Source: Gracilaria vermiculophylla (taxonomy: Eukaryota > Rhodophyta > Florideophyceae > Gracilariales > Gracilariaceae). From it: 61,558 nt of DNA. The position numbers and the translations under genes were made by a program. The notes below the pieces were generated by a model, which searched no databases, was not told where the DNA came from, and worked only from the letters and a program-made list of their open reading frames with translations. Of this stretch, positions 7,099 to 60,208 are shown in pieces; within the stretch, counting starts at the first letter, position 1; every line of letters starts with the position of its first letter. The DNA lies in NCBI GenBank assembly GCA_019155205.2, contig JAHNZQ020003150.1, positions 867,854 through 929,411 on the forward strand. The letters run 5' to 3'.

Positions 7099-7658
7099 AT
7101 GGCAATATATATCTCCAACTATTCGTTTTGGGACAGTTTAATCTACTGGAGTGCTAAGGGTACTTCAGAACGAGTGGTATTTCCACAAAACGCTGCCTTC
7201 CGAGATGCAATAACGAATAAGTTCCTTCTACAAGGTCATTTTGGTTGGAAGAAGACTTATTTGCTTTGTGCTAGACATTTCTATTGGAAACGGATGTTTG
7301 CTGATATTCAAGAGTTTGTGAGACTCTGTAGCCAATGTCAGTTTAACAAAAAGTCTCGGACATTGAAGAGTAGAAACGTCCAGCCGCACACCGTGTTGGC
7401 GGCTTGCTGGGGTATTATTTCAATGGATTTCGTATCTGAATTTCCGATGACTAGTACAGGAAAAGACTCTGTACTTGTGGTGGTCGAGAAGCTTTCAAAG
7501 AGGGCATTGTTTATTCCAACAAAGAAAACGCTGACGTCAGTAGAAGAGGTGCAGCTACTCTTTGGTCAAGTGTTTTCAAAGCACGGTATACCAAAGACAA
7601 TCATTTTGGACAGAGACAAGCTCTTTACGTCAAACTACTTCAAGGAAATTACAAAGAT
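7099..7658 (+). pseudogene. Element A integrase, 5' half (chromovirus)
   Basis: This opens with an HHCC zinc-binding domain (GHFGWKKTYLLCARHFYWKR, then FVRLCSQCQFNK) and runs into an integrase core: SMDFVSEFPM (first Asp) and ILDRDKLFTSNYF (second Asp). It stops abruptly at the codons for FKEITK where element B1 begins. The remainder of the core resumes at 18183 with MLNVELNIAKKGHPQTDAKS. Upstream of 7099 the RT and gag of this element are absent, so element A was already truncated or rearranged. Confidence 0.85.
7654..7658. repeat. Target site duplication AAGAT, left of B1
   Basis: AAGAT precedes the TG of the 5' LTR and recurs at 18178-18182 directly after the 3' LTR. Confidence 0.9.
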
Positions 7659-8211
7659 TGTAGTACAGTGGCTCCTACGGAAATAAGGTGGTTTGGCCTT
7701 AAGTTATAATATTCCTGAAAAGGGCTCGTATTTCATTAGCTGAGCCACGTGGTGCATATTCTCGCCCGCGTGCGCTACAGTATCTTTGAGGTACGGTAGA
7801 TTTATTATTTATTTTAGATAATTTATGCGGGTAATTAGTACAGTAGCGTGACCTGCTGAGGCGGGCTCCCGGCTTGATACTTAATCTGCAGGTTGAGCTT
7901 TACCTCTGGGGAAGAAAATACAAGCACCCTTGAGTCTTCTTCTACTTTTTCGGTTGGAGTCTCTTGTCGATCTACGCAGGTTTCTAAGCCGCCGATCCCC
8001 AGTTCGCATCATAGCAGCCCCTGTAGGAGCATTGTCCGCCCAGTGAACCTCCCCCTCCGCTTTGTGTTTGCGGATCCATTTTCAGAATTCCCCCGGCTCG
8101 CGACAGCGGATACCAGAGACCACCTTTAGGAATACGCGCCTTTGGAGTCACCAAAAACTCCTAACGGACGTTATGATTTACTACCTCGAGAGGAGGGCTG
8201 ACAGTACCAAA
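7659..8211 (+). repeat. B1 5' LTR (553 bp)
   Basis: It starts TGTAGTACAGTGGC and ends at ...ACAGTACCAAA. The 3' LTR ends in TACCACA, so the last bases have mutated here. It aligns along its whole length with 17625-18177 without net length change. The differences are scattered base changes, so the insertion is not recent. Confidence 0.9.
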
Positions 8212-8388
8212 ACTAGTCTACCGACCTAGAAGGTCACATTTCCTAAAGGATTTGGACAAATCGCAGCAGAATGCTGTTTCTAGTTTGCAACGACCAACCC
8301 TTAACAGTGGAAGTCGTCCGTAAAGTGATCCGGAAGTGGAATCAAATCACCCCCGACTTACTCCTCTATAGACCCCTCAGAACATCGT

Positions 8389-10361
8389 ATGGAAATCGTC
8401 CTACAGGACCCTCAAGCAACCGACTCCGTCAGTGGGCGCAGCACACGCAGCGCTCCCGAGGGGATGGCCGCCACACTGGAGGACCCTGAAAGTCTCCTTC
8501 GGAATCCTGGCTCCTCTGTGGAGCGTTTCAGTAATGGCCTTAGGAAAATGCATGATCGGAGGCAAGCGAAATCCCCCGCGACACCTCCGGAGAACGCCGA
8601 TGTGGAGGTTGAAGAACCTCACACGGAATCGCAGCCGCCACTTCAGGAGCTGCAAGGACGCGAACACCCGGAAGATAACTATCTCTTGGAGTGCCTGGCC
8701 CTGCGCCTTACGGATTGGCTCTCGCAAGAGCTGGTCAAAAGAATACCTGTAGGTGTTGAAGCACATTTCGGAGCGCGCCGCCACACCCTTGTGGAGGAAA
8801 TCGCAACGGAGAGCGCTCCCCGTGCTGTGGATGCTTTGCTGGATTTCGACCCCTTCCCTGAGGTGATTTCAGATGTTATCCGTGCAGAGGTTCGCTCCAA
8901 AACCGCGCAGCTGCTCCCCGCAGCGGCGTTTCAAAGTAATTCTTCCGTACAGGATTGGTTCCCTCTATCAACGCCTGAGGTGACCCCGGGCAGAGAAGAA
9001 AAGCATACTGCCACCCCCTACGCCAGAGGAGGAAAGGATACTGCCTTAGGGAAACGGGACCACCTCAGGAACCCTGCTATGCACCGTCTGGACCTGACAC
9101 CCCGCGGAAGAGGACAGGATACCGGTCGCGAAGAAGTTTACCTAAGGAGAGAAGGACAGGATACTCCTCGGGTGGATCGGGATAACGGGGGTATCGTCAG
9201 CAACCCAGAGCACCTAAAGGAAAGAAGAAGAAAGAAACGGAGGGAGAAAAGAAGAAAGCGAGACAACGATTCGGAGAGAAGTTCAGACTCTGAATCCATA
9301 AACAGCTCCAGCTCAGAGGACAGTATATCTTCCAAGGAGAAGAGCAGAAGGCTCAGGAAGGTCGTCCTGCTTAACGAACTCTTTGGCAAAGTGGTGGATT
9401 ATGACACCTACAGGTTGAATGATCGCTCCACACTTTACGATGCGTCGGTCCCGCCAAACGACTCACGAAGATGCAGTGCCGTATGGATATTCAAATGAAG
9501 AAGCACTCCTTCTCAGGAAAAGACCCTATCTTGGTGTTGAAGTTTCTTACGCGCTTCCGTTCGGCTTGTAACACCAATTGTGTCCTTCAGAGCGCCACCG
9601 TACGTTGCTTTCAGTTCTATCTCACAGGCCAAGCGCAATCGCTGGTGCAGCCACGCCTCACGGGGGAGAGCAATATTGTGGATGATCCTGGAACGGAGAT
9701 CTTGACGACATACCCGGAGGTAGTCAATTTCCCCCTTAAAAGGTACGCCACGTACGAGGTGATAGCCGACGCTGATGCTGAGGTTACTTCCTATAGGCAG
9801 AACACCGGAATGACGGAGACGGAGCTCTCACAGAAGCTGTGGACGAAAGCTCTGCGGTATGGGAATGTGTACTCCGAACTGCGGTTTAAGTCGCTGTTTG
9901 TCGAGGGACTCCTTCCCTCGATTCGCGCGAGGGTGCTAAATCATTTGACCACGCACCCATAGACCTCATATACGGAGTTCGCACGTTTTGCTGAATCCTA
10001 TGGGGATACCCACCGTGCCGCTCGCCGCAGTCATGCTCCACTTTCGGACAAACCGGCCGCCTTAAGGATCCATCGGGCATCCGCCCTGACGTTGGACTCC
10101 AGCACCTCGGAGGAAGTTGACGAGCTCACGCTCGTAGAAGAGCAAGAGGTCCTTGCCCTCGCATACGCCTCCTCTCAGAGAGCACCGTCTAGGACGAGAA
10201 CACCCTCGTCTCCAACTTCGTACGTCTCCGCAGGATCGTACCGGAGCGTCAGATTTGCGAACCCTCGAGGCTACCCACCGCCTTGCAGGATTTGCTTGTC
10301 ACGAGAGCGCATACACTGTACGACTCTCACCCCGGCAATGAGGGCCGCCATCCTGAAGTAA
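8389..10361 (+). pseudogene. B1 gag
   Basis: The first open piece (8389-9498) is an acidic to neutral N-terminal region ending in a strongly basic run (ERRRKKRREKRRKRD) followed by a Ser/Glu-rich stretch, a combination that could act in RNA binding or nuclear transport (inference). A one-base shift leads into 9471-9962 with the capsid segment (FSGKDPILVLKFLTRFRSAC...), matching the start of Ty3 retrotransposon gag domains. An in-frame TAG at 9960 precedes 10092-10361, which ends near CRICLSRERIHC, a degraded CCHC knuckle. The N-terminal half, about 330 residues before the capsid, is unusually long. The start at 8389 is the first Met in frame and may not be the true one. Confidence 0.75.
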
Positions 10362-10756
10362 AGAGAGAAAAACTTCCAGGACCTGGAGGACACAACAACG
10401 GAGAGCGGAAGTTATAGAACAGCGTATCGCGACATCCGCTCCCCTCAAGAAAACTACGGTTACCGTGCTCCACCGGGAGTGCATCCTGTCTCACTGTCAC
10501 TGGCACCCGCAACGCAGATGCCGGTGTCCCAGCCGGATGCACCTGAAGGGAACAATTTGCATCGCGATGCACTACCGCAGAAGCCGTCCCCGCCTGGAAC
10601 CCAGCCCCTTTCCAACCAGGAAACCCCTCAGAGCCGCGCGTAGAGGCTCCGCGTGGCTCTCTAACATCGAGCCTCAGCTTCGCGGAGGTCGCCTTTAAGA
10701 AAGGGAGACAGACCGTCTACTCTGTCCACGCAGAATCGGCGGGCACTACAATTTCG

Positions 10757-13700
10757 TTGGACCCCTTCGACACCTTTGAGGATTCTGTGTGCACGCTCCG
10801 CCGTGGGAATTACAAGGTATTCGCCTCTATAGGATGTTCATCGCTCGCCTCCACCAAGGTGCGCGCTATCCTCGATATCGGAGCTGGCCCCAATCTGGGG
10901 CACGCCGACGTGCTCCCGCGGTCTGCTCTAGGTTCCTTGAGGGCTGATAAACTCCAGACGGTACGCGATGCGTCGCGACGAGCATTGATCATCCTTGGCA
11001 AAATCCCAATGTACCTCCGGCTAGGCTCCTTACAGGTTAGAGTGTGGTTCCTCGTGGCGACCAACTTGGCCGCGCAATGCATATTGGGCACTTCCTTTGT
11101 GGATCGATATGTACGTGCAATCCACCCGTGCCTGCGGAAGGTGACGTTTCATGACGCCGCCCATGTACGTATCGTGTCCGCGTCTCTAGGATCGGACTCC
11201 AACGCGCGTCACGTGGGAAATCTTCCAAAGGAGACGCAGTCGAATAAGCTCCGAGCGGTAAAGAGCATCGAAATACCCGCGAGGAGTCAGACCGAAGTCT
11301 GGATGCAGACCTCTGCACCTGGCCTTTCATTCCTACAGGGGAGTCTACACCTGACGACAAAGCAGCACTCCATGATGGCGAACGGTGTTATGGAAGTAAT
11401 ACCGAATATTCCCTTCAGGGTCGTGCTCGCCAACCTTAATAAGTCACCGTTACGGCTCCAGAAAGGAACTGTCGTCGGACTGGCACTACCCGCCCCTGCA
11501 GGGCTGGCTCACCTTCCTCGATCGGATGACCTTGCGGACCGCAATGCTATCTCCGCCATGGAGGCTGAAGCGACTTCAACGGCTCCAGAGGAAGAGAGTC
11601 CTGCCACCTGGCAGGAGAAGCTCCAAATTGGCGATGATTTCAAAGGTTATCGCCACAGGATAGTAGAGATACTATCCACTTGTGAGAACATGTGGTCTGG
11701 TCGCCTGGATCAGGTCAGCCCGGCCAAGCACAGGATCCAGCTCACGCCGGATGGAAAGCCGGTACATCAACTCCCGAGGAGGGCTGGACCCCACGTGCGC
11801 GACTTTGAACGCGATGGGGTCCACCGGATGCTGGAGAAGGGCATGATAGAGACTTCCGATTCCGAATGAGCCTCCTTGGTGGTGTTCGTCAAAAAGAAAG
11901 ATGGCTCCCTAAGGTTCTGAATTGACTACAGGCGCCTCCACGAGGTGACGGTACGCGATTCCTACCCGATACCCCGTATGGATGAATGTATCGACTCCTT
12001 AGGCGATGCTTCCGGTTTCTCCACGCTGGATGCCAACAGCGGCTACTGGCAGATTGAAATAGAGTACTCCGATAAGGATAAGACAACGTTCACCTCGCAC
12101 TGTGGTATATTCATATTTCTAAGGAGGTCATTTGGATTGAATAATGCACCCGCTACGTTCCAACGAGAGGTGCACATTATCCTGTCAAAGGTGAAATGGC
12201 AGTACGCCTTGACGTATATTAATGAAGTCATCATATACTCCCGCAGCGTGGAGGAGCACTTCATTCATGTGTAGCACGTGCTCCAACTCCTAAAGGATGC
12301 TATACTCACCTTGAAGCTGGAGAAATGTTTCTTTTTCAAGTCGTCGGTGGAATACCTGGGGCACGTTGTGCTTCCGGGCCGCCTACAGGTTTCCAGGAAA
12401 ACGCAGGACGCCATCAAGGAAGCTCGCCCTCCCACGAACCAGACGAAGCTTCGCTCCTTCCTCGGGTTGTGCAACGTCTTTCGGAGATTTGTACCGAATT
12501 TCTCCCGTATAGCGGCACCGTTAAATCGCCTCTTGGAGAATGAAAAGCCGACGCAATTGGCTATCCTGACGGATGAAGATTTTGAAGCCTTCGACACATT
12601 GAAGAGGAGACTGATAGAACCACCAATCTTGGTACTTCCGAAGCGGCACGGCCGAATGGTGCTGGACACTGACGCCTGTAAATACCAGTTCGGATGTGCC
12701 CTCCTATAGGAACAACCTGAAGGTGGACTTCAACCCATCGGGTATTGAAGTCGCAGCCTCACCCCTACGGAACGGAATTATTCCACTTCGGAGCGCGAAT
12801 GTCTCGCCATCGTGTGGGCGGTTTTGCTTTTACGCCCATATCTGGAAGGCGCGCTCTTCACCTTGAGGACGGACCACGCACCACTGAAGTGGAAACTATC
12901 CTTGACGGATGCTTCCGGTCGCCTGGAGAGGTGGAGATTACGCTTCCTGGAGTTCGAGTTTGACATCGTCCACCGCCCTGGCATGAAACACTACGCAGCG
13001 GATACGCTCTCACGGATCTCCACAGAGGGAGAAGATAAAACACCTTTGGAGGACACCGTCCTGTGTCTGGTCATCCAGGACGCTGGCGGGAAAGAAAGAT
13101 CCGACAGAGAATGTTTGGAGGGCTGTGAACCTGTAGGAAAGTACAGTGGACTCCTTGATGTGATGGCTCTTGTTGAGGAGGAGAAAGAAGTCCTCCCCAT
13201 TACTGTAGCGGAGTTCCTGAAGGAGCAGAGTACGGATGCGGACTGCAAGGAGTGCCTCGCTATTGTGGGGAGTTTGAAATCGTCATTCGACGCCGATCGA
13301 GACGGCGTGCTTGTGCGCTGCGCTTCCCTGGATGGAGCCCTCCAAAAGGTGGTCCCGACGAAGCTACGGGCTAGAGTGCTGTATCTCTCGCACTTTTCTC
13401 GCCTCGCCGGGCACCCAGGGAGATCTCGGATGTATTTCACCATGCGGAGGGAGTTCTATTGACCGAACATTGCTAACGACGCCTTCCAAACGGTTGCGGA
13501 TTGCTATTCCTGCGCCGCCGCTAGGGGTAGTGTACGGAAACACCGGACGCCGCTCACGCTGTTTCCACCTTCAGGACCGTTGGAGTTTATGGCCATGGAC
13601 ATCTTGGGTGCTATCCCCAAGACGGAGCGAGGGCACCGATTTATCGTCGTGATCACGGATCGCTTTTCCAAGATCACGTGTGCCATCCCCCTCCGGAGCA

Positions 13701-14782
13701 ATACTGCAGCAGTGATTGCCGACGCCTTCCTGGAGCATTGGACTTACACCTACGGGATACCGTTGGACCTCCTTACGGACAATGGATCCCATTTTGCGGC
13801 GAAACTCTTCAGCGCTGTCTCCGGAATGCTGGAGATGAAACAGTTGTTTACAACTGCCTATCACCCCCAGACAAACTGACAGGCGGAAAGCTTCAACAAG
13901 ACCATCGCCTGGAGGCTGAAGCACTACGTCGCGGACCACCAGAAAGATTGGGACGCATATGTGGGACCCCGCACGTATGCATACAACCTACAGGTTCACT
14001 GCTTCACGGGGACTGCTCCTTTCAATCTGGTGCTCTCGCGCATCCTACCAAGTGCCGTCAGCGCGGCGCACGCAACGGCTCACCCGGCGAATGGGCCACA
14101 GATGCCGACAGCGGCGCAAACCAAACGCCTTATCCTAAGTCAATATGAGAAAGCACTCTCCCTCGCGAAGGAGAGACTCAACACCTCGCAGAGGAGATAT
14201 ATAAAGGACTTCGATCGAAAGGTTATAGAAGCCCCTCACCTGAAAGAAGCCGACGAAGGTTTCCTTGACAAACCCGGGGACAATTCCGATGAACCGCCGG
14301 ACGGCACGCGCAAGTTAGCGCCGACCACCTCAGGGCCCTTCAAAGTCCTTGCCACCTATTGGGAAACTGTCGCCATTGAGGTGAACGGGATCAGAGATAT
14401 CGTCTCCCGTGATAGGGTGACGAAAGTCCCAACGCCCAGACTTGCAGGAATGCCCGCCACCCCACCTCAGGTACAACGCGCGGAAATTTCTCATTCAACC
14501 ACCTCAGGCGCGACGACACCACGGGATACTGGGAACCACATCACCGCTCTCGGTGAACAAATCCTGGAGGCTCCCGAGACCATCCTGACCCGTGAAGGCG
14601 ACATCCTCTACGAGGTGGACCATATCGTTTCCCATCAACAAACCCCTGCAGAAGTACTGTACCGCGTCCGCTGGTATGGATACACCTCGAAGGACGACAC
14701 GGAAGAACCTCCGGAATATATCCCGGAGAACGTCCTTAGGCGACTCCACGCCAGTCTGGTGCGGAAACGCCTCTCCACATAG
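10757..14782 (+). pseudogene. B1 pol (protease, RT, RNase H, integrase, chromodomain)
   Basis: One reading frame runs through the whole gene and is broken only by stops (11867, 11918, 12272, 12707, 12746, 13460, 13877). Protease: VRAILDIGAGPNL, where the family DTG is DIG. RT: the YxDD catalytic motif is YINE (12215-12226), so both Asp are lost. RNase H: LDTDACKYQFG and LRTDHAPLKW. Integrase: HHCC zinc domain around 13388-13520, then MAMDILG and LLTDNGSHF with the Glu block (QAES) after the 13877 stop. A chromodomain-like tail follows at 14610-14775 (YRVRWYGYTSKDDTEEPPEY), which makes this a chromovirus. The frame is open upstream of 10757 too, so the true start is undefined. Copy B2 keeps YVDD. 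Confidence 0.9.
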
Positions 14783-14818
14783 GCGCTTCTGATTAGAAAA
14801 GGGGGAGGGGGCCCCTAC

Positions 14819-14879
14819 CGGAGTTTTTTTTGCCTCCGCAGTCTATCCCTTACCTAGAGGTCTCTTTTTTGCCTCCAGG
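14819..14879. other. Twin hairpins between pol and antisense gene (B1)
   Basis: Hairpin a: CGGAG (14819-14823) pairs with CTCCG (14834-14838) around a T-rich loop. Hairpin b: CCTAGAGG (14853-14860) pairs with CCTCCAGG (14872-14879) with a single mismatch. Both lie in the 240-bp spacer where pol and the antisense frame converge. Matching pairs exist in B2 and B3. Confidence 0.6.
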
Positions 14880-15022
14880 ATGCTGTGTTTGCTTTGTCGC
14901 ATGCTCCTACGGCGGCACCTCGTGTCGCTGAGATTGCGAACATGGACTATGTGTGTTTGAACTACCGTTCGTGGACCTTCTGCTCCATCCGAGGGACCTT
15001 TTATTGGTCAGGGTCTTATCAC

Positions 15023-16906
15023 CTACAGGTCACCGAATCGCGTTGAACACTCCGCTTCGAGGCGCGTTTTTGCTGTGAGCACTTGGCTAACAAAGAACTC
15101 CAACACGCTTTCCTTGAGGGCCGCCATCGAGGCTCGGTATGTCCGGACCTTGTGGAGCTCTAAGACCCAAGCACGCGCCTCACGCAGAGCCTCCACATGA
15201 GTAGCCGGAGCAGGACGGCCTGTCACCAGGCACGCCTGCACCAACTCCTGGAAGGCAGCCTCCAGAGCACAAGAGGAGACTCCTTCCGGCGCTGCACCCG
15301 ATGCATCCACCTCCGTTGCTGGCGCAACAACCGCCACGGAGGGAGCTGCAGACGGCGGATCAGCGGAGACAGGACCTTTACGACGGGATTCCGTGGGTTC
15401 AGCAGTGGAGCACGGCAATGCCAAGGGCGGAGACGGTGACGCCGGAGGTGACGGCGGTGAGAGAACTGGAACGCTCCGCAGGCGAGGCTAAGCAATCGGC
15501 GCAGGGACGCTCCGCAATCGGGGTTGCGCCACTTGGGCAGAAGGCGCCGGGACGGGAGTAATTTCGTCCTCGTCCATTGGGGACACGGTGGCCACCACTG
15601 CGAGACCACTCGGCATTGCGGCGGGCCGCAGAGTTATCACCTCAGGAGGTGCGCCCATACCTTAAGGTGGAGCCGGTAACCGACGGGGCGCATCAAACGC
15701 CTGACTCTCCATAAAGGGGTCGTAGTCGGGTACTCGTAGCCGTGGCACCTGAGGAACCCGAGATGGTGCCAGACGGGAAAACGCGGGGTACGCATGCCCG
15801 TCATCGTCTCCATTTGGACTCCTCACAGTGGGGTGAAACTTGTCCTCGCCGTAGTCGTACCAGAGAAAACCCGGTGTGTCACTCCACGCCACCTGAAGGT
15901 TGTAATCCAACAGTGTCTCCGCTTCGGACTCGCTCCATGCAGTGCCCTTACCCAGGTTCTGGACACCAAAGGAGCGCAGGACCCGTATGATGGACGCCGA
16001 GAAGGGGAGCAAACGCCCGGCCGTCGGCTGATATGACGAGTCCCAGTAGAGACGGCGATAGCGGCATCGGGTATAGGAAGTTACGCTTTCTTCCGCCGCT
16101 TGGAGGTACGCAATCAGGGTGCCGACCGCAAACTCCGTCAAGGCGACCAGCATGACGAACCGCCCTAGGGAGTCATGTGGATCCAAGACCTCAGAGGTAT
16201 GATACGCAAAGGATATGGGTGTCGCCACGCAGAGATGCGGGGATACCCAGTGGTCCCTCCAGGAGTCGTTCACCTTAAGGTAGTACTTCGGACGTTGCCC
16301 AGGGGGCATATCATGGAATTCCGTGTTCTGCCATCCGTTGAAGTACCCGAATGCGGTGCGTACGCAAGTGTCGTCCGCGAGGTGCGTCCTCCATCGATTT
16401 CGATTGAGTCAGTACAGGCGGTCGTATGGGGGATCGAAGGGAAACACCGCAAGGGCGTAGCATCCATCGGCGATGATTCCGGTTCGCCCCGCTCGCTGGT
16501 TCAAGCTCTCCTTGTAAAGCACGACCTGGAGTCGTGCCCGGATCTCTCGTTCTTCCGCGCACCTCAGGTAGGGAGTGTCGCAATGTCCGACCATGGTTAG
16601 AGCATTTTCACCATGTACCGGATTATGAAGCCAATGGGCCCGATATGCGTCGACGCGGTTCCGCTTCTGGTCGTTCCATGCAACATCCGGGACGGGGCGG
16701 AACCGCATCGCTTGCAGGTACGACCCGAAATGGTGAATGTAGTCCTCCACGGGACAGGGGAGTCTCACGCGCCTATCGTGGAACGGGACAAACACCCGCG
16801 TGGCGCAATGATCAAAGTGTTCTCCTGGGCGGAACGGTGCTCTGGTCGAGGTGTGATACACCTCAGGATTGAAAGGGGACGTCAGCGCTGGAGTAGGAGA
16901 GGACAT
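15023..16906 (-). pseudogene. B1 antisense gene, unknown protein (about 627 codons)
   Basis: On the strand opposite to gag-pol, one frame can be read from ATG at 16906 (MSSPTPALTSP, a Met kept in all four B copies) to TAG at 15023 without a frameshift. It is interrupted by TGA at 16409, TAA at 15662 and TAG at 15489. The N-terminal 420 or so residues are rich in Trp, Tyr, His and Arg, with blocks such as LPCPVEDYIHHF and WSESEAETLLDYNLQVAW. A Pro/Ala/Ser linker follows, then a helical C-terminal region (EALREARAWVLELHK). No signal peptide, membrane segment or known domain is seen. The linker carries short RLRSVPxP repeats. Copies B2, B3 and B4 hold the same frame. Function unknown; a protein expressed from an antisense promoter of the element is the simplest reading. 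Confidence 0.8.
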
Positions 16907-17624
16907 TCCGCAGGCGTACAAAGCAGGGTGGATGGCGACCGAACGCGTGGTTGCATCTGAGGAGAGAGACCTGACACCACTCGGGGATCGATTAGAAGGT
17001 ATATGCACCACCGCGGAGGGAGCTACGTTAAGCCACCACCGTGGAATCCGAGGCAAAGCAAGGCGACCGGCAATCAGGCGAGTTACGGAGCACTATCGCG
17101 GGGCGCGCGCTCATATCCAACGGAAAACCACGGAGGTGCGGACGAGAGACTCATGAGTCGGGCACCTTCACGGAGATCGGATGAGCGGAAGCGAAGAAGC
17201 GGGTGTTGCCAAAAGAAGTAGCCTCGAAGACGTCGGAGTGGCTAGCGCCTCCAGGAGGTCGGTACCCTTGCGAGACTGACCCACGCTCCGTCCACGGAAG
17301 TGCGCGCTCGCACGGCGCGCGGTACGCCGGAAGATGCGGATGCTCGCGTTGCCGACTGGCGCAGCAGCACCGACAGCTGACACCAAGAAGGAGCGGATGC
17401 AGCCAGTTGAAGGAAGAGCGAACCCACGAACGCCGCAAGGAGTGAAACGCAAGCCCGCGGCAACACGCCGCGCAGGAGTATGGAGAAGAGAAGGAACGCC
17501 TGAAGTAGAGAACGGGCAAACCGCCGAAGGCCGCACGCGCCTCAACACCGATAGGAGCCACCCCAGGGATCAAGAAAGCGGAAGATCCACCTCGAAGACG
17601 TGGTGCAATTTAGGAAAGGGGGTA
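16907..17624. other. B1 region between antisense gene and 3' LTR
   Basis: This 718-bp stretch would hold the leader and promoter of the antisense gene. The antisense frame stays open upstream of the chosen Met to about 17095, and a recognisable PRIPRW...RSPSG stretch is shared with the other copies, so a longer N-terminus is possible. The polypurine tract AGGAAAGGGGG (17612-17622) precedes the LTR. Confidence 0.5.
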
Positions 17625-18177
17625 AGTATTACAGTTACTCTCACGGAAATAAGGTGGTTTGGCCTTAAGGTATAATATTCCCAAGGACGGCTCGTATTTT
17701 ATTAGCTGAGCCACGTGGTGCCTATTCTCGCCCGCGTGCGCTACAGTATCCTTGAGGTACGATAGAATTATTATTTATTTTAGATAATTGATGCAGGTAA
17801 TGAGCACAGTTGGGAGACCTGCTGAGGCGGGCTCCCGGCTTGATACTTAATCTGCCGGTTGAGCTCCACCTCTGGGGAAGAAAAGACAAGCACCCTTGAG
17901 TCTTCTTCTACTTTTCCGGTTGGAATCTCTTGTCGATCTATGCAGGTTTCTAAGCCGCCGATCCTCAGGTCGCATCATAGCAGCGCCTGTAGGAGCATTG
18001 TCCGCCCAGTGAACCTCCCCTTCCGCTTTGTTTTTGCGGATCCATTTTCAGAATTCCCCCGGCTCGCGACAGCGGATACCGGAGACCACCTTTAGGAATA
18101 CGCGCCTTTGGAGTCACCAAAAACTCCTAACGGACGTTATGCTTTACTATCTCGAGAGGAGGGCCGACAATACCACA
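17625..18177 (+). repeat. B1 3' LTR (553 bp)
   Basis: It follows the polypurine tract AGGAAAGGGGG (17612-17622). The initial TG has changed to AG in this copy (AGTATTACAG against TGTAGTACAG), and it ends TACCACA before the AAGAT duplication. Confidence 0.9.
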
Positions 18178-18182
18178 AAGAT
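18178..18182. repeat. Target site duplication AAGAT, right of B1
   Basis: This is the second copy of the 5-bp duplication; the interrupted integrase gene of element A resumes here. Confidence 0.9.
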
Positions 18183-36533: not shown

Positions 36534-38603
36534 ATGTCTTCTCCATCTCCAACTGTAGCATTTGGGATGCTTTTGGTTCGGAGGGCCGAATAGTGAGCTA
36601 AGTCCGTTGAGATTACTCATAGTCTCTGGCACGGTAATCAGAAGGATACCCGGAATGTATGACGTGACCCTCTTTGGTGGNNNNNNNNNNNNNNNNNNNN
36701 NNNNNNNNNNNNNNNNNNNNNNNNNNNNNNNNNNNNNNNNNNNNNNNNNNNNNNNNNNNNNNNNNNNNNNNNNNNNNNNNGGTGTATCATACCTCGACCG
36801 CTGCACCATTCCATCCACCAGAGCAGTTCGACCTTCGAGCCACGCGTGTCTTCTTCCCATTCCATGATAGGCGCGTACGTCCCCCGTGTCCCGTGGAGGA
36901 TAACATCCACCACTTCCGACCGTACCTCCAGGCGTTGCGATTCCGCGCTGCACCGGAGATTGCGTGCAACGAGCAGAAGCTGAACTGGGTTGACTCCTAT
37001 TGCGCTCACTGGCTCCACACTCTGGTGCACGGTGACAACACTCCGACAACGGTGGGACACTGCGATACCCCATATCTGAGGTGCGCCGAGGAGTGTGAGG
37101 TTCAGGTGCGACTCTACGTTCTACTTCACAAAGAGAGCTCACACCAAAAAAGAGGCGACCGGGAAGCATTGCTCATGGACGCTCGGATCTCGCAGTGTTG
37201 CCCTTCGAACCCCCATACGATCGCTTCTACTGGCTCAACCGAAATCGATGTTGGACGCACCTTGCGGATGAAATCCACGTATGCACCGCCTTCGGGTACT
37301 TCTATGGTTGGCGAAACACAGAATTCCACGACATGCCTTCCAGACAGCGTCCGAAGTACTTCCTCATGATGAAAGACTCTTGGAGAAACCATTGGGTACT
37401 CCCGGAACTCTGCGTGGCGACACCCATCACCTTTGCGAACCACACCTCCGAGGTTCTAGATCCCCACGCCTGCTTACGGAGTTTCGTCATGTTCATCGCC
37501 TCGAGGTAGTTCGTGGTCGGCAGCCTGATGGCGCTTTAAAAAGCATCCAACGAGGGTATCACATTCTATACTCGGTGCCGCGACGGTCGCCTCAACTGGG
37601 ACTCTTCCTATAAGCGGACTGCCGAACGTTTGCTCCCCTTTTTGCCATCTATTATCCGGATCCTGCGCTCTTTCGGCATCCAGAACCATATTAAGGGCAC
37701 GGCATGGAGTGAATCCGAGGCGGAGATACTGCTGGACTACAACCTGCAGATGGCGTGGAACGACACGCCGGGCTTTCTTTGTTACGACTACAGCGAAGAT
37801 ACGTTCCACCTCATCGTGAGGAACCCCAATGGAGACGATGACGGGCGAGCCTATCCAGCCTTTCCCCGTCTGGCGCCTCCTCGAGTTCCATAGGTGCCAC
37901 AGCTCGGCGTACGCGACTATGACCCTTTGATGGACAGCTGGGCGCATCATACGCCCCGTCGGTTACCGTCTCCGTTTCAGGATATGTGGCGCCTCCTAAG
38001 GTGATAACCCCGTGGCCCGCCGCAATGCCGGGGGCTGCTGCAGTGGTAGCCGCCATATCTCTTATGGAAGAGGACGAGAATTTTCCCGTTCCGGCACCTT
38101 CAGCCTCTGTGGTGCAACCCCAACTGCCGAACGTCCCTGCGCTTGTTCTTCAGCATCGCCTGCGGAGCGTTTCAGTTCCCGCACCGCCGTCACCTCCGAT
38201 GTCACCGACTCCCTTCTTGGCTGTGCCGACCTCCACGACGGAACCTGCGGAGTCCCGTCGAGAAGCGTCTATCCCACCTGGTCGCCCGTCCGCGGCTCCT
38301 TCGGTGGCGTTTGATGCACTGTCAACGGAGGTGGCCGCTTCGGGTGCACCGTCGGGCGGATTGTCCTCTGAGACTATGGGTGCCGCCTTCTACAAGTTGG
38401 TGCATGCGTGCCTCGTGACGGGCCATCCTGCTCCGTCTTCTCCTGTAGAGGCTCTGCGCGAGGCGCGTGCCTGGGTCTTAGAACTCCATAAGGCTCGGAC
38501 GGACCGAGCTTCGATGGCGGCCATTATTGAAAGCCTGTCGGAGTTCTTAGAGGTCCTAGCGCTCACAGCAGAAGATTGCCTCAAATCAAAGTATACGACC
38601 TGA
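36534..38603 (+). pseudogene. B2 antisense gene, unknown protein, with assembly gap
   Basis: The same protein as the 15023-16906 frame, here on the plus strand. It starts at ATG 36534 (MSSPSPTVAFG), is interrupted by about 119 bp not present in the other copies and 100 N, and resumes with VYHTSTAAPFHP at 36781. One frameshift near 37195 moves the frame. Later pieces carry WLNRNRCWTHLADEIHV, GTAWSESEAEILLDYNLQ and the Pro-rich linker, and end in EALREARAWVLELHK (37986-38603). Its differences from B1 are largely conservative (for example DVAW to EIAC, AYRAHW to SYCAHW). An upstream ATG at 36346 (MVLHTSPASG) is also in frame. Confidence 0.75.
36681..36780. other. Assembly gap of 100 N
   Basis: A run of exactly 100 N inside the B2 antisense gene, a conventional scaffold gap. 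The 119 bp to its left (36562-36680) does not match the other B copies and may be misjoined sequence or a small insertion. Confidence 0.95.
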
Positions 38604-38788
38604 GTCGCTGACCTGTTGCCGAAAGGACCCTGGCGATGGGAGTTTGTTTTCGGTAGTGGCAGAATAAACGATCCTTCAGTTGGAGCAGAAGCTCCATGAA
38701 CTATAGTTCCAAAATGACTAGGCCGTGCAGGCGTGCTCAGCAACACAAATTTCCGCAGCGGAAGCATGCGATAAGCGAACAACGGCAT

Positions 38789-38849
38789 CCTGGAGGCGAA
38801 AAAGAGAACTCCAGGTAGGGGATAAACTGCGGAGGCGAAAAACACTCCG
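38789..38849. other. Twin hairpins between antisense gene and pol (B2)
   Basis: CCTGGAG (38789-38795) pairs with CTCCAGG (38809-38815), a perfect 7-bp stem; CGGAG (38830-38834) pairs with CTCCG (38845-38849). The loops are A-rich on the antisense-gene strand. Same pair as in B1 and B3. Confidence 0.65.
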
Positions 38850-38879
38850 GTCGGGGGCCCCCTCCCCCTTTCCTAAACG

Positions 38880-41800
38880 AAAGCGCCTATTTGGAGAGGC
38901 GTTTCCGCACCAGATTGGCGTGATATCGCCTAAGAAAGTTCTCCGAGATATGTTCCGGAGGTTCTTACGTGTCGTCCTTCGAGGTGTACCCATACCAGCG
39001 GACGCGGTGCAGTATTTCTGCAGGGGTTTGACGATGGGAGACGATATGGTTCACCGCGTAGAGGATGTTACCTTCAGGGGTCAGGATAGCATCGGGAGCC
39101 TCCAGTGATGGTTCAACGAGAGCGGTAATACGGTTACCAGTATCCCGTGGTGTCGTCGTGCCTGAGGTGGTCGCGTGAGGAATCTCCGCACGTTGTCCTT
39201 GAGGTGCGGTGGTGGGAATTCCTGAGAGGTTGGGCGTTGGGACTTTCGTCACCCTATCACGGGAGACGACGTACCTGAGTCCGTTCACCTCAATGGAGAC
39301 AGTATCCCTATAGGTGGCCAGGACTTTGTAAGGCCCTGAGGTGGTCGGCGCTAACTTGCGCCTGACTTCCGGCGTTTCATCGAAGTTTTACCCGGGTTTG
39401 TCTAGGAAAACTTCGTCGCCTTTCTTCAGGTGAGGGCCTTCCATGACCTTTCGGTCGAAGTCCTTTTTATATCTCCTCTGCGAGGCGTTGAGGCTCTCCT
39501 TCGCGAGCGAGAACGCTTTCTCATATCGCCTTAGGATGGAGCGTTGGGCCTGCGCCGCTGTTGGCGTCTGTGGCCCATCCGCCGGGTGCGCCGCGGCGCG
39601 TGCTGCGATGACGGAACTTGGCGGGATGCGTGAGAGCATCAGATTGAAAGGAGAGGTACCCGTGGAGCGGTGCACCTGTAGGTTGTATGCATACGTGAGG
39701 GGTCCCACATTTGCGTCCCAATCCTTCTGGTGGTCCACGACGTAGCGCTTCAGCCTCGAGGCGATGGTTTTGTTGAACCTTTCCGCCTGTCCATTTTTCT
39801 AGGGGTGATAGGCAGTTATAAACAACTTTTTCATGCCCAGCATTCCGGACACGGCGCTGAAGAGTTTCGCCGCGAACTGGGGGCGATTTTCCGTATGGAA
39901 GTACAACGATATCCCGTAGGGGTAAACCCAATGCTCCAGAAAGGCGTCAGCAATCACTGCCACAGTAGTGCTCCGGAGGGGGATGGCGTGCGTGATCTTG
40001 GAGAAACGATCCATAATCACGAGGATAAATCGATGTTCTCGCTCCGTCTTGGGGAGAAGACCCAAGATGTCTATGGCCACAAACTCCAGCGGTCCTGAAG
40101 GTGGAAACAGCGTGAGCGACGTCCAGTGTTTCCGTATACTCCCCCTAGCGGCGGCGCAGGAATAGAAATCCGCCACCGTTTGGAAGGCGTCACTAGCGAT
40201 ATTCGGCCAATAGAAGTCCTTCCGTATGGTGAAATATATCCGAGATCCACCGGGATGCCCGACGAGGCGAGCATAGTGCGAGAGATACAACACTCTCGCC
40301 GATAGCTTTGTCGGCACCAACTTTTGGAGAGTTCCATCCAGGGGGGGCGCGGCGTAGAAGCAAGCCATCTCGGTCGACGTTAAATGACGATGTCAAACTC
40401 CCCACAGTGGTAAGGATATCCTTGCAGTACGCATCCGTACTCTGTTCCTTCAGGAACTCCACCACAGTGACGGGGAGAACTTATTTCACCACCTCAACAA
40501 GAGGTATCACCTCAGGGAGTCCGCTATACTTTCCTCCAGGTTCACAGCACTCCAAACATTCTCCATCGGATCTTTCTTTCCCGTTGGCGTCCTGTATAAC
40601 CAGACACGGGATGTTGTCCTCCAAAAGTGTTCCATCTTCCCCATCGGTGGAGATTCGCGAGAGCGCGTCCGCTGCCTGGTGTTCAATGTCAGGGCGGTGG
40701 AAGATGTTAAACTCGAACTCCAGGAGGCGTAACCTCCACCTTCCAGGCAACCGGAAGCATCCTTCAAGGACAGTATCTACATCAGTGGTGCGTGGTCCGT
40801 CCTGAAGGCGAAGCGCGCGCCTTCCCGGTAAGCGCGTAAAAGCAAAACCGCCCACACGATGGCGAGACATTCGCCCTCCGAGGTGGAATAATTCCGTTCC
40901 ATGCGGGTGAGGCTGCGACTCCAATACCCGATGGGTTGAAGTTCACCTTCCATTTGCTCCTGTAGGATGGCATATCCGACCTGATATTTACAGGCGTCAG
41001 TGTCCAGCACCATTCGGCCGTGCCGCTTCGGAAGTACCAAGATTGGTGGTTCTATTAGTCTCCTCTTCAATGTGTCGAAGGCTTCGAACTCCTCGTTTGT
41101 CAAGATAGCCAATTGCGTCAGCTTATTATTCTCCAAGAAGAGATTTAACGGCGCCGCTATATGGAAAAAATTCTGTGCAAACCTCCGGAAGACGTTACAC
41201 AACCCAAGGAAGGAGCGGAGTTTCGTCTGGTTTGTGGGAGAGTGAGCTTCCTTGATGGCGTCCTGAGTTTTCCTGGAAACCTGTAGGCGGCCCATAGGCA
41301 CAAAGTGCCCCAGGTAGTCCACCGAAGACTTGAAAAAGAAACATTTCTCCTGCTTCAAGATGAGTCCAGCGTCCTTTAGGAGTTGGAGCACGTGCTTTAA
41401 ATGAATGAAGTTCTCCTCCATGCTTCAGGAGTACATGATGACGTCATCGACATATACCGAGGCGTACAGCCACTTCACTTTTGACAGGATAGTGTCCACA
41501 GCTCGTTGGAACGTAGCGGGTGCATTCTTCAATCCAAATGGCATCATTAGGAATCTGAATATCCCACAGTGCGAGGTGAACGTTGTCTTATCCTTATCGG
41601 AGTCGTCCATCTCTATCTGCCAGTAGCCGCTATTGGCATCCAGCGTGGAGAAAAGGGACGCATCGCCTAAGGAGTCAATACATTCATCCATCCGGGGTAT
41701 CGGATACGAATCGCATGCCGTCACCTCGTTGAGGCGCCTGTAGTCAATACAGAACCTTAAGGAGCCATCTTTATTCTTGACAAACACCACTGAGGAGGCC

Positions 41801-44755: not shown

Positions 44756-46628
44756 GAGGTCACCAAATTGCGGCGTATACTCTGCGTCAAGGCGAGCTTT
44801 TGCTATGAGTGCTTGGCTCTCGAAGAACGCCACCAGGATTTTCTTGCCGGCCGCCATGGAGGTTGGGAACGCCCGGGCCTTATGGAGTTCCGGGACCCAT
44901 GCACGCGCCTCGCGCAGAGCCTTTACAGTAAAAGCCTGAGCAGGGCGGCCATTTACTAGGTACGCCTATACAAATTCCTGGAAGGTAGCACCTAGAGCCC
45001 CAGAGGGTAAGTTGTCCGATGGTGAACCCGAAACACCGTTCACGGAACAACAACCACCACGGACGGATTCGCGGAAGGCGGACCGGCTGGGACAGGGCCT
45101 TCCAAAGGGACTCTGCAGGAACCGCTGAGGAGGTCGGCAGGGCCCAGGACGGAGTCGGCGACACCGTAGGGGACGGCGGTATGGGAACCGGAACGCTCCA
45201 CAGGCAAGGCTGAACCATAGTCGGAGGAACACTCCGCAGTCGAGATGGCACCACTGAGGCCGAAGCTACCGGGACAGAAGTAGTCTCGTCCTCTTCTAAA
45301 AGAGACACGGTGGCCACCACTGCGGGAGCGTCCGAAATTGCGGCGGGCCGCGTCGTTAAGACTTTAGGAGGCGCACCCATATCCTGGGACGGAGCCGGTA
45401 GCCAACGGGATGTAGGAGTCGCCAAGCTTTCCATCAAGGAGTCATAATCGGGGAATCGGAGCCGTAGCACATGAGGAATACGAAAAGATGCAAGACAGGA
45501 AATGTCCGCGTAGGCTCGCCGGTCATTGTCTCCACTGGGACTCTTCACGATGGGGTGGAACTTATCCTCGCCGTAGCCATACCAAAGAAAGTCCGGCATA
45601 TAGTTCCACGCCACCTGCAGATTATAATACAGCATCGACTCTGCCTCGGACGTGCTCCACGCGGTGCCGTTGATCAGATTCTGAATGGCATAGGAGCACC
45701 GAACCAGGATAATTGACGCCACCAAGGGGACTAAACGTCCGGCTATTGGCTAATACGAGGAATCTCACTAGAGGCGACCATCATAGCACTGAGTATAGCA
45801 GGTGATGCCTTCGTCCGCTGCTTGGAAATATGTCACTAGAGTGCCGATCGCGAACTCCATTGAGGCGATCAACATGACGAAACGCCCCAACGAGTCATGG
45901 GGATCCAGGACCTCCGGGGTGTGGTACACGAAGGAAATGGGTGTTGCCACGCAGAGGTGCGCTGATACCTAGTGGTACCTCCAGGAGTCGTTGAACTTGA
46001 GGTAGTACTTCGGACGTTGCCCGGAAGGCATTTCGTGGAATTCCATGTTATGCCAGCCGTCGAAGTACCCAAAGGCGGTACGTACTCGGATCTCATCCGC
46101 AAGGTGCGTCCCTGAACGAGTCCAGTTGAGCCATTATAAGTAAACTTATGGGGGATCGAAGGGCAACTACACGAGGGCAAAGTGCCTATCAGCGATGCAT
46201 CCGGGCCGCCACGCTCGCTGGTGCAAACTCTCCTGGTGAAGGAGTATCTGAAGTTGCGCCTGGACTTTCCGCTCTTTGGCGCACCTGAGGTAAATAGTAT
46301 CGCAGTGTTCCACCATGTTTGAATCGTTGGAACCGTGCACTGGAGTGTAGAGCCAGAGAGCGCGATAGGCGTCAACCAGGTTCCGCTTCTGGTCGTTCCA
46401 AGCAACATCTAGTACTCGGTAAAATCGCATCACTTGAAGGTACTGTCCAAAATGGTGGATACAAAACTCCACGGGGCATGGGAGACTAATGCGCGTGTCG
46501 TGGAATGGCTCGAAAATCAGCATGTAACGATGTTGGAGGTGCTCTCCTGGGCGAAATGTCGCACCGGTAGAGGTGTGATACACCTCAAGATCGGACGCAG
46601 ACGTAGGCGCCTGGACTGGAGAAGTCAT
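44756..46628 (-). pseudogene. B3 antisense gene, unknown protein
   Basis: It begins at ATG 46628 (MTSPVQAPTSASD), directly preceded in frame by a stop at 46638, which supports this Met as the start in the family. 46628-46167 holds LEVYHTSTGATFRPGEH and VAWNDQKRNLVDAYRALWL. 45950-45768 and 45725-44880 follow with GTAWSTSEAESMLYYNLQ and the Pro/Ser linker. The end near 44756 has lost the stop seen in B1. Several frameshifts occur in the last third. Length from Met to end equals that in B1 within a few codons. Confidence 0.75.
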
Positions 46629-48182: not shown

Positions 48183-50356
48183 CCCCCCTCTGTCACTGAG
48201 TTCAAACGTCTATGGGCATCAGGCTTGGAGGAGTTCACACCTTTGATCTGCAGGAAACCTCGAGCAACCACGCGGGTCTTGTAACGAACTGTCGATTCAC
48301 CGTTGGCACCTGCCTCATACTTTTGCACAAGCACCCACCTGCACGATATCACGTTGCTGTCTGCTGGCCTCGGCATAAGCTCCCATGTGTCATGCTGCTT
48401 AAACGACTCATACTCGCTTTGCATTGCCTTCGTCCACGCCTTGCAATCAGGGCGTGAAACTACATCTTGATACGACACAGAAATGTCATCACTGGCTGTG
48501 AGTAGAGCAGTGGCACGCCACCAGGACGAAGTCGGCTTTCACACACGAGTAGACCCACGCAATGGCCCTAGCTCTTGCACATCTGGAGCATCTTTTGGAA
48601 CGTCGGTGAAGTGATCGGGACCGCTTTCTGGGATCTGATCTGGAGGTGTGCCCGTGTCAATATCCTCAGTAATGGGTTTAACTGGTGGTTGAGAAGTAAA
48701 GCTTTGATCAGAATTGGACTTTACCGGGATTTCCATCTCGGCGTAGTCATCTTCACAATGATCAGTACTCTCATCTGAGTCATTGCGTTCATCAAACTTC
48801 ACATCTCTTGACACGACCACCTTTCTCTTTTGCTTATCCCACGGCTTATAGCCATGCGATCCAGCAGTGTACCCAATGAAGATCGCCTGCACGGCACGGT
48901 CCTTCAGCTTCTTCAGCTTGTGATCCACCACATTGTACCAGCACTTGCTCCCGAATACACGCAGATTGCTCACGTTAGATTTTTGTCCATGCCACAACTC
49001 ATATGGGGTCACGGTACTGGGCAATGCCTTACACGTCACTTTGTTGCGCACGTACACCGCAACATTCAGTGCTTCTGCCCAGAAGCTTTTGGGCAGATTC
49101 TTGTGACGAAGCATTGACCTGACCAAATCCATGAGTGTGCGGTTGAATTTTTCGGCGAGCCCGTTTTGGTGCAGATTGAAAGGAACAGAGCGCTGATGTT
49201 CAATACCGTGTGACTCAAGTTCTTTGGCAAATATTTTTGAGATGTACTCACCACCATTGTCCGTTCTTAGCGCACGAAGTACGCACTCACTGGCAGTAAT
49301 GGTTTTGATTTGAGTACCTATTTGGTTTTGAACAAACTTGAGCCATTTCACGAACATCTGGAACGCCTCACTCTTGGTCTTGAGCATGTACAGGAAGCAG
49401 AACCGGCTGTAATCGTCGATGAATGTGACAAAGTAGCGCGAGCCTCCCAAGGAACCCACCTCCACTGGACCACAAATGTCCGAGTGAACAAGTTCCAACA
49501 GCTTGGTTGCGTGCTCCCCCCCTTGCTTGGGAGTCGCCGCGCGGGTAGACTTGCCTACAACACAAGAGTCATATACAACCAGATTCTGTGCCACATCCAC
49601 ATTAAGCTTTGACACAGCGCCATCGCGAGCCATTTGCTTGATGCCACCAACATTCACGTGAGCCATACGATCTTGCCAGAGTGACAGGTCGAATACAAGT
49701 TCGCTGTCCGGATCAGCAAGTTTTGAAACTGCAGTACAGAGGTAGTAAAGGTTTTTGACACGGCGTCCTTGTGCAATCCGAGCAGAGCCCCTGTACACAC
49801 ACACCTTGTGCTTGTCGAACACAACAGTAGCATCCAAGTCACAAATGGCAGATACCGATAGCAGGTGGTAACGCAGACTTGGCACGTGCACTACTTTGCT
49901 CAACTTGCACTTGCGCCTTGAACTGTCAACACCCACATCCAGCTCAACACAGCCTTCGCCAAGCGACTCTAATTTGGAAGCATTGCCGATAATCACACCA
50001 GAAGCTGCCTTGCTCTCGAATGATTGGAACATGGAGTCGTCACAGGTCATGTGTGCGGTAGCACCGGCGTCAAAAATCCAGTCAATGTTAGTGGCCTTAG
50101 CGGCTCCACGAGCAATGAGGCAAACGTATTCAGAATCACTGTCACCCGTACATTGCTCTTCGTATTGAGCATTGTGTACGCTTGCATGAACAGCAGCATC
50201 TTGGTCTTTGTTAGCCTCATCACGTTGCTTTTTGAAACAGTTTCTCTGGATATGACCCTTGATGCCACAGTGGTAGCACACAACGCCCTTCTTTCGCGAC
50301 TGTCGGCCAACCAACGCTGCTTCACTTCCAGATTCCTCCTTGGCTCGATCGTTCAT
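48183..50356 (-). pseudogene. Copia F protease, integrase and partial RT
   Basis: A long frame (50356-48539, 605 codons) and, after one TGA, 48538-48183 in the same frame. It starts in gag with a CCHC knuckle (CYHCGIKGHIQRNC). Protease: WIFDAGATAHMTC, where the usual DSGA reads DAGA. Integrase: a worn zinc domain (LWQDRMAHVN, YDSCVVGK), then HSDICGPVEV, RTDNGGEYIS and NGLAEKFNRTL, so the catalytic D, D and E are present. RT starts WVLVQKYEAG and VVARGFLQIKG, then jumps to a C-terminal NSSKPDAHRRL stretch. The deletion removes the YxDD motif and RNase H. Confidence 0.9.
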
Positions 50357-58327: not shown

Positions 58328-60208
58328 ATGACGTCTCCGGCCCCAGCTCCTACTTCTTCGTTCGATCCTGAGGTATATCACACCTGTAACAGTGCGCCGC
58401 TTCGCCGGGGGAGCACTTTGACCGTCGCGCTACACGGGTCTTTGTGCCCTTCCATGACAGGCAAGTTAGTCTCCCGTGCCCCATGGAGGACGACATCCAC
58501 CATTTCGGAGCGTATCTACAGGAGATAAGGTTCCGCATAGTACCGGAAATGGCTTGGGACGTCCAGAGGCGGAACTGGGTGGACGCTTTTCGCGCTCACT
58601 GGCTCCATACTCCGGGGCACGATGAAAACGCTCCAAACAAGGTGAGGCACGGCGATAATATTTACCTCAGGTGTGCCAAAGAGCGTGAGATCCCGACTCG
58701 ACTCCAATTACTCCTCCACATGGATTGCGCACACCATTGAGCGGGACGGCCCAATAGCATCGCGTATGGACGTTCCGCCCTTACGGTGCTGTCCTCAGAC
58801 CCCCCTTACGATGTCTTTTAATGGTTGTAACGCAACTGATGGCGGCCGCACCTTGCGAATGAGCCTCGAGAGCGGAACGCCTTCGGATACTTTTATGCTT
58901 GGCACAACACGAAGGTCTAGGACATGCCTTCCGGGAAACGTCCAAAGTATTACTGCAAGGAGAACGACTTCTGGAAGGACCATTGGGTCTCTTCGCACGT
59001 CTATGTTGCGACGTCCACCATGCTCGTGTATCATATCTCAGAGGTTCTCGATCCAAATGATTCCTCATCACTGTTCGTCATGTCGATCGTCTCGACGGAA
59101 ATGGCAGTCTGTATTTTGGCGGTTTATCTGCAGGCAGCTAACGAGGGCGTGACTTCCTATACTCGGTGCCGCAACGGTCCCCTCTATTGAGATTCATCAC
59201 ATCACCCAACAACTGGACGTTTGCTACCCTTGACAACGACAACTATCCAGGTCACTTGCTCCTTACGAAGTCATAATCTGGTCAGGAGCACCACGTGGAG
59301 CGAGTCCAGGGCGGAGAAGCTTCTGAAGTACAACCTGCAGGTGGCTTGGAACGATACGCCGGGCTTAAATTGTAATGACAATGGCGAAGAGAAGCTTACC
59401 TCATTTCGAGGAGCCTCAATGGAGACCATGACGAGCGAGCCTACCCGGCTTTTCCGGGTCTTGCCCCTTCTCGGATTTTCACGTGCCACGGCTCCGTGCC
59501 CGCGACTATGATCCCACGGTGGAGAGTCTGGTGATCCATAAGCCTCTTTCGCTACAGGCTGCGTCGCAGAACGTGGGTGGTCCTTCTGAGTTCGGAGCGC
59601 AGCCTCAAGAAACAATGTCGTATCCTTCCGAAGTAGTTGCCGACGTGCCGTCTAGGGATGAGAACGAGACTACTCCTGTACCGGCTGCTTTTGCCCTTAT
59701 AGTGCAATCCAGACTGCGGTGCGTTCCGGTGCCGGTTTTTCAGCCTCGCCTGCGAAGCGTTCCGGTTCCCGTACTGCCGTTTTCTCCGCTGTCGGCTGCT
59801 CCATACTTGGCCCTGTCGACCTCCGCGGCGGTGCCAGCAGAATGCACTTAAGAGCCCACTGTCCCAGCCGGTGTGTCATCTTCGACTCCTTCTCTAGCGG
59901 TTGTTGTTCCGTCGATGGAGGTCGCCGCTTCTGGCGCACCCTCGGGCGGGATATCCTTCGGGGCTCTGGATACTGCCTTCCAGGAATCACGACAGGCGTG
60001 CTTGATGACGGGCTACCTTGATCCGACTTCTCTTGTAGAAGCTATGCGCGAGGCTCGTAACTGAGTCCTAGAGCTCCATATGGCCCGGCCAGACCGAGTC
60101 TTGATATCGGCCATCAAGGAGAGCCTGCTGAAGTTCTTCGAGAGCCGAGTGCGAACGGCGAAAGTTCACCTGGAGGCAGAGTATGAGACGCCACTAGGTG
60201 ACCTGTAG
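58328..60208 (+). pseudogene. B4 antisense gene, unknown protein
   Basis: From ATG 58328 (MTSPAPAPTSSFDPEVYH) to TAG 60206-60208, 1,881 bp against 1,884 in B1. Pieces in shifting frames: 58444-58740 (VSLPCPMEDDIHHFGAYLQ, NWVDAFRAHWLH), 58924-59190 (MPSGKRPKYYCKENDFW), 59221-59511 (TTWSESRAEKLLKYNLQVAW), 59483-59851 (LRSVPVP repeats) and 59873-60064 (LVEAMREARN). It has more frameshifts than B1, consistent with its greater age. The retained start, stop and length support one ancestral gene. Confidence 0.75.

Follow-up and report, generated by a model that had tools for sequence, protein, structure and literature searches.

Does the strand opposite gag-pol in a red algal retroelement carry a gene of its own, and if so, what might that gene do? 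The question is raised by a stretch of 61,558 nucleotides of the Gracilaria vermiculophylla genome (contig JAHNZQ020003150.1; the whole stretch is called the window, and the genome holding it comprises 44.8 Mb in 27 contigs). In this window, the Ty3/gypsy chromodomain element B1 (7659..18177, gag-pol on the plus strand) has a 627-codon open reading frame (ORF) on the minus strand at 15023..16906, with an ATG at 16906 and a terminal TAG, in the interval that separates pol (ending at 14782) from the 3' long terminal repeat (LTR; from 17625). A sequence-only reading had described a frame of about 627 codons in that interval with three stops and no frameshift, and had proposed it as a functional accessory gene of the element. 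The description proved accurate, as the B1 frame has internal stops at codons 166 (TGA), 415 (TAA), and 473 (TAG) and is spanned by a single ungapped protein match.

Purifying selection on the antisense frame

A 215-residue query gave 519 candidates in the genome, of which 150 were scored (identity 65–100%), and 34 of those 150 places had no stop within the 215-residue stretch. Seventy copies were taken with 1.5 kb per side, comprising the best 30 and 40 of the 120 others (20 stop-free, 20 for diversity), and L051 was excluded; the sample is thus biased to better-preserved copies. The alignment of 72 rows contains the remaining 69 copies, B1 among them, and the homologues in B2, B3, and B4, the other copies in the window. 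Values given for 62 copies refer to the 69 minus seven with more than 300 N.

The median ratio of nonsynonymous to synonymous divergence (dN/dS, or omega) in the ORF frame was 0.33 over 2556 pairs of the 72 rows, rather than near 1. Over the whole ORF the ratio was 1.16 in frame +1, 1.43 in +2, 1.04 in −0, and 1.48 in −2, and in these frames it ranged from 0.88 to 1.74 when the ORF was divided into two parts. Constraint was strongest in codons 1–415 (15662..16906, minus strand), the part that also holds a domain common to distant proteins; there the median omega was 0.24 (62 copies), and it fell steadily with increasing dS, being 0.35, 0.27, 0.24, and 0.19 in the successive dS quartiles. Such a fall with divergence is as expected if the spreading lineages were constrained and dead copies were decaying. 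Codons 416–627 (15023..15661, minus strand), which form a Pro/Ala/Ser-rich C-terminal part, were more weakly constrained (omega 0.56; 0.65, 0.57, 0.53, and 0.48 by dS quartile). The integrase/chromodomain tail of pol had an omega of 0.62 in its own frame and 0.90 and 1.03 in the other two frames there. Between the window copies, pairwise omega was 0.18–0.42 for codons 1–415, 0.37–0.72 for integrase-chromodomain, and 0.45 for the reverse transcriptase (RT)-RNase H region, which was compared in B1 and B2 only.

The pattern of divergence along the frame has the same character. Over the first ~1,130 nt, divergence among the 62 copies was 0.30–0.40 at codon position 3 and 0.11–0.19 at positions 1 and 2. 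This three-base period was weaker in the Pro-rich part and was lost beyond the stop codon, with the sense-strand wobble of pol appearing further on. Stops were also scarce, with a median of 2.5 per 628 codons in the 62 copies versus a mean of 19.3 expected from shuffled copies. Among 30 copies, four of them with N runs, the ORF frame had 0–10 stops and each of the five other frames 5–26, a comparison within copies that controls for the sampling bias. Four of the 69 copies (L031, L034, L018, and L010) were stop-free over all 627 codons in the raw sequence; L018 is frameshifted near its end, L010 carries an N run, and L031 and L034 are open across 708 codons. The terminal stop was kept in at least 43 of the 62 copies. 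These data show purifying selection on the antisense protein sequence in the lineages that spread, and we are close to certain that the frame is a selected protein gene. As selection acted on the amino acid sequence, the antisense protein must therefore have been translated at some stage. The proposal of an accessory gene likewise held up, in that selection of this kind favors a gene that probably serves the element.

Homologous sequence is present, as had been reported, in B2 (36534..38603, plus strand), B3 (44756..46628, minus strand), and B4 (58328..60208, plus strand). The suggestion that these were equivalent open frames did not stand, since all three are broken: B2 by an N run, frameshifts, and stops, B3 by several stops and a frameshifted C-terminus, and B4 by a frameshift near codon 30 and stops. 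The start codon required a similar revision. Of the 62 copies, 56 have an ATG where the Met had been reported, but this Met is probably internal, because the codon period starts ~180 nt upstream of it and an in-frame ATG occurs at codon −69 in 55 of the 62. An in-frame stop follows further out, at codon −82, in 42 copies. The region upstream of the reported Met had an omega of 0.46, and in B1 the probable 69-codon N-terminal extension (16907..17114, minus strand) begins with the codon −69 ATG at ~17114 and contains one frameshift before the reported Met. In L031, codon −69 is ATA rather than ATG. The gene likely starts at codon −69 and would then encode a protein of ~696 amino acids and 77 kDa.

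Comparison of B1 and B2 revealed that the antisense gene and pol may have had separate histories. The dS between these two copies was 0.226 for RT-RNase H and 0.218 for integrase-chromodomain, versus 0.919 for the antisense gene, and the identity of B1 (14700-16900) to B2 (36781-38900) dropped from 0.86 to ~0.76 near 14.75 kb. The simplest reading of these sequences would be that elements have recombined somewhere from the end of pol to the antisense gene. In the 62 copies, pairwise distances in the pol tail correlated with those in the first part of the ORF at rho 0.51 and with those in its last part at 0.69; the latter value speaks against a single fixed junction. The distance correlation between the first part of the ORF and the region upstream of it was 0.79.

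Candidate pol copies without the antisense gene were also considered. Both that were checked (L080 and L081, for which no ORF partner was listed) carry the gene with internal deletions (~47–454 and 403–447 in the numbering of P0002, a protein of this genome), and their integrase-chromodomain region is still recognizable.

The protein and its distant relatives

The antisense protein is organized as a short N-terminal part followed by a conserved domain of ~330 amino acids and a tail rich in Pro, Ala, and Ser. The sequence-only reading had recognized no domain in it, and searches of Pfam, NCBIfam, and the PDB agreed in giving no fitting family. Weak matches to PF06140 (E 1.7), DUF6714 (0.14), and DUF7397 (0.26), the two DUFs in one member each, were taken as chance, as were antibody chains in the PDB at E 0.028 and above. 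When the L018 translation was compared with 5.8 billion proteins, no match was found among the scored candidates, namely the 8000 with the most words in common with the query, a list that the Pro/Ala-rich tail may have crowded.

A more sensitive route did find relatives. A profile built from 13 rows over codons 1–415 led to proteins P0004, P0005, and P0006, and P0006 led in turn to P0007, P0008, and P0009. These are six unnamed proteins of public assemblies, known from protein sequence alone; P0003, like P0002, comes from the present genome. P0004 and P0005 are the closest (47% identity over 154 residues and 62% over 69 residues), and P0006–P0009 are 21–26% identical to the L031 protein; for P0006 the match extends over 321 residues at 25% identity, with an E of 9e-24 for the single comparison. 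The residues in common fall in GWHNTE..MP, LC..TP..FAY, and GR...LS blocks. All six proteins thus have the conserved domain in common with the antisense protein, and, as with that protein, a Pfam search of them gave no match. By this measure of divergence the family is evidently old, because four of the six public matches are only 21–26% identical. No relatives were found in IMG/VR or in prokaryote genomes.

Two further candidates were set aside. Homology of the C-terminal helix to P0007 seemed convincing on inspection but was not supported: in a comparison with 200 shuffles, P0007 came 83rd of the 112 that were reported, and BLASTP gave 15 bits. Matches of P0007 in the genome had suggested a second, distant gene family; L077, the one of those six places that was read, belongs to the same family and is frameshifted.

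Known antisense genes and the possible role of the protein

Most descriptions to date of accessory ORFs on the antisense strand of LTR elements come from flowering plants. The available parts of PMC7264820 and PMC11963269 describe antisense extra ORFs in plant Ty3 elements, as the sequence-only reading had stated: these are the aORF-3R of Retand, Grande (gene23), RIRE2, and PvRetro13, which lie between pol and the 3' LTR as the present ORF does, and PMC7264820 also counts among them that of the fungal element Boty. The features by which aORF-3R are recognized, namely antisense orientation, a position between pol and the 3' LTR, many copies, and a conserved protein, were all found here. There are also clear differences. 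According to the text available, Retand belongs to a non-chromovirus lineage and its antisense ORFs mostly carry TRP28 (PF04195), reportedly in flowering plants only (PMC11963269), whereas the present pol ends in a chromodomain, its host is a red alga, and the antisense ORF has no TRP28 match. PF04195 was absent from the Pfam match lists of the antisense protein, and a search of the genome for it, made with no plant control, gave two matches below the cut-off (E 0.38 and 1.6), neither of them at a listed place of the ORF. The brtn gene of Boty-like elements in Botrytis cinerea is likewise an antisense extra gene, in a fungus, and is compared here by its description in PMC7264820 rather than by sequence; Zhao et al. 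2011 is cited as the original brtn paper in the available part of PMC8365987. HBZ of human T-cell leukemia virus type 1 (HTLV-1) and other retroviral antisense genes encode antisense proteins with a nuclear role (PMC11963269, in the part available), and the likeness to them is in mode of working only.

No such antisense gene in red algae was found in the literature searched, which largely excluded subscription papers. Within that literature and the databases searched, the arrangement is known, and the protein is new, as is its occurrence in a red algal chromodomain element. The present family combines codon-level purifying selection on an antisense gene with a protein outside the described families and a host beyond land plants and fungi. 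If our interpretation is correct, an antisense accessory gene would be a recurrent solution for Ty3/gypsy elements.

How would such a gene work? Because of its coding strand, it would be expressed from an antisense mRNA of integrated copies, which may start in or near the 3' LTR. The protein could then be an accessory regulator that works in trans on transcription of the element, its silencing, or nuclear steps. Plant aORF-3R proteins have been proposed to act in this way, and HTLV HBZ is known to do so. The distant homologues P0006, P0007, and P0009 have a KRRR(T) basic patch directly after the conserved domain, possibly a nuclear signal, and it is this patch and the analogy with known systems that suggest a regulatory or nuclear role. 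Taken as a whole, we give a real antisense accessory gene encoding a trans-acting regulator an even chance of being the correct explanation; for the regulatory mode of the protein, argued by analogy, we would put the chance slightly under even. Several observations weigh against this explanation. The KRRR patch is missing in P0002 and P0003 of the present genome, and the AlphaFold2 model (P0008 and 13 further rows) was unusable, with a mean predicted local distance difference test score of 41.3, and provided no fold. The least diverged stretch between the ORF and the LTR is at the polypurine/LTR junction, no antisense promoter could be named, and the case for antisense expression comes from sequence, not from a transcript or peptide. 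More tentatively, and with greater doubt than confidence, we suggest that the protein may represent a new ancient family spread among algal and other protist retroelements, with its gene antisense to gag-pol and a function as a nuclear regulator of its own element, in which case the HBZ/TRP28 strategy would have arisen independently outside land plants, fungi, and animals.

The protein might instead help the element to replicate, as a structural component or an enzyme, in particle assembly, integration, or entry. The ~330-residue domain is constrained more strongly than the chromodomain tail, as a helper of this kind might be, and P0002 has a hydrophobic stretch (mean 1.92 over 19 residues). 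That peak is not consistent, however, being 1.68 and elsewhere in P0003, 0.82 in P0006, and 1.34 in P0007, and an envelope-like character was not found, as the gene is antisense and this simple hydropathy scan gave no consistent transmembrane segment. The lack of a fitting family in the databases named above also argues against a helper, as does antisense expression itself, which would be possible only from DNA copies and not from packaged sense RNA. We consider a helper unlikely.

A captured host or virus gene, carried as a passenger with a constraint older than its capture, would account for the lack of a relative among described retroelement proteins. The constraint is seen among the element copies themselves, however, at dS from 0.06 to 1.43, and the gene adjoins pol also in the two checked pol copies with no listed partner, which makes capture improbable. 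It is very improbable that the product is an antisense RNA, acting as double-stranded RNA or in silencing, with the open frame secondary; the available part of PMC7264820 does discuss LTR-element antisense RNAs with possible regulatory roles, but constraint at the RNA level gives neither a codon period that ends at the stop nor protein similarity at 25% identity. Finally, there is hardly any chance that the frame is open only through coding on the opposite strand, since the mirror frame −1, whose dN/dS is also low (0.43 for the whole ORF, 0.35 for codons 1–415) because it has its wobble column in common with the ORF frame, has 14–26 stops in each of the 30 copies, and the other two sense-strand frames have 5–22.

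Structure of B1 and its genome context

B1 is flanked by a 5-bp target duplication, AAGAT (7654-7658 and 18178-18182), and its LTRs (5' LTR 7659..8211, 3' LTR 17625..18177, plus strand) align over 553 bp ungapped at 92.6% identity. The outer ends of the element are TG..CA, and the inner LTR ends are altered. The gag-like region (8389..9962, plus strand) comprises two overlapping ORFs, named by position only, with no match in a Pfam search. The pol gene (10757..14782, plus strand) is in broken pieces and has Pfam matches to RVT_1 (9.3e-11), RNase H (2.4e-8 and 3.2e-9), Integrase_H2C2 (1.1e-5), and Chromo (6.3e-6); a gag-asp protease match was weak and under the cut-off (E 0.039). A match to the integrase core (rve), below the cut-off, was obtained in B2 only (E 2.1e-6), B1 being broken in that region. 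RT and RNase H precede the integrase, and the chromodomain is C-terminal, with the ORF ending at 14782. B1 is thus a Ty3/gypsy element of chromovirus type, a label that rests on the chromodomain. Chromoviruses as such were already known in red algae, according to the available part of PMC3605345. In the Chronos elements of oomycetes a second RNase H is present, as described in the text available of PMC5348765, whereas none was matched by Pfam in the B1 piece from RT_RNaseH to Integrase_H2C2.

Elsewhere in the window, a Ty1/copia-type ORF of 605 amino acids (48539-50356, minus strand) has a zinc knuckle, an integrase core, and an SH3-like domain. In the wider genome, hydrophobin and elicitin gave no match in searches where no control responded either, and TTTAGGG repeats had no exact four-fold match. 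The chlorophyll-binding family had ten matches, not all from separate genes, and a light-harvesting protein gene is located at G000 C14:1978061-1978498 (L078); the light-harvesting genes pointed to a red algal host, not to the oomycete or fungal one that the look of the elements had suggested. One chlorophyll-binding protein was closest to chains of PDB 9kc5 and of PDB 7y5e, the latter presumably from Porphyridium.
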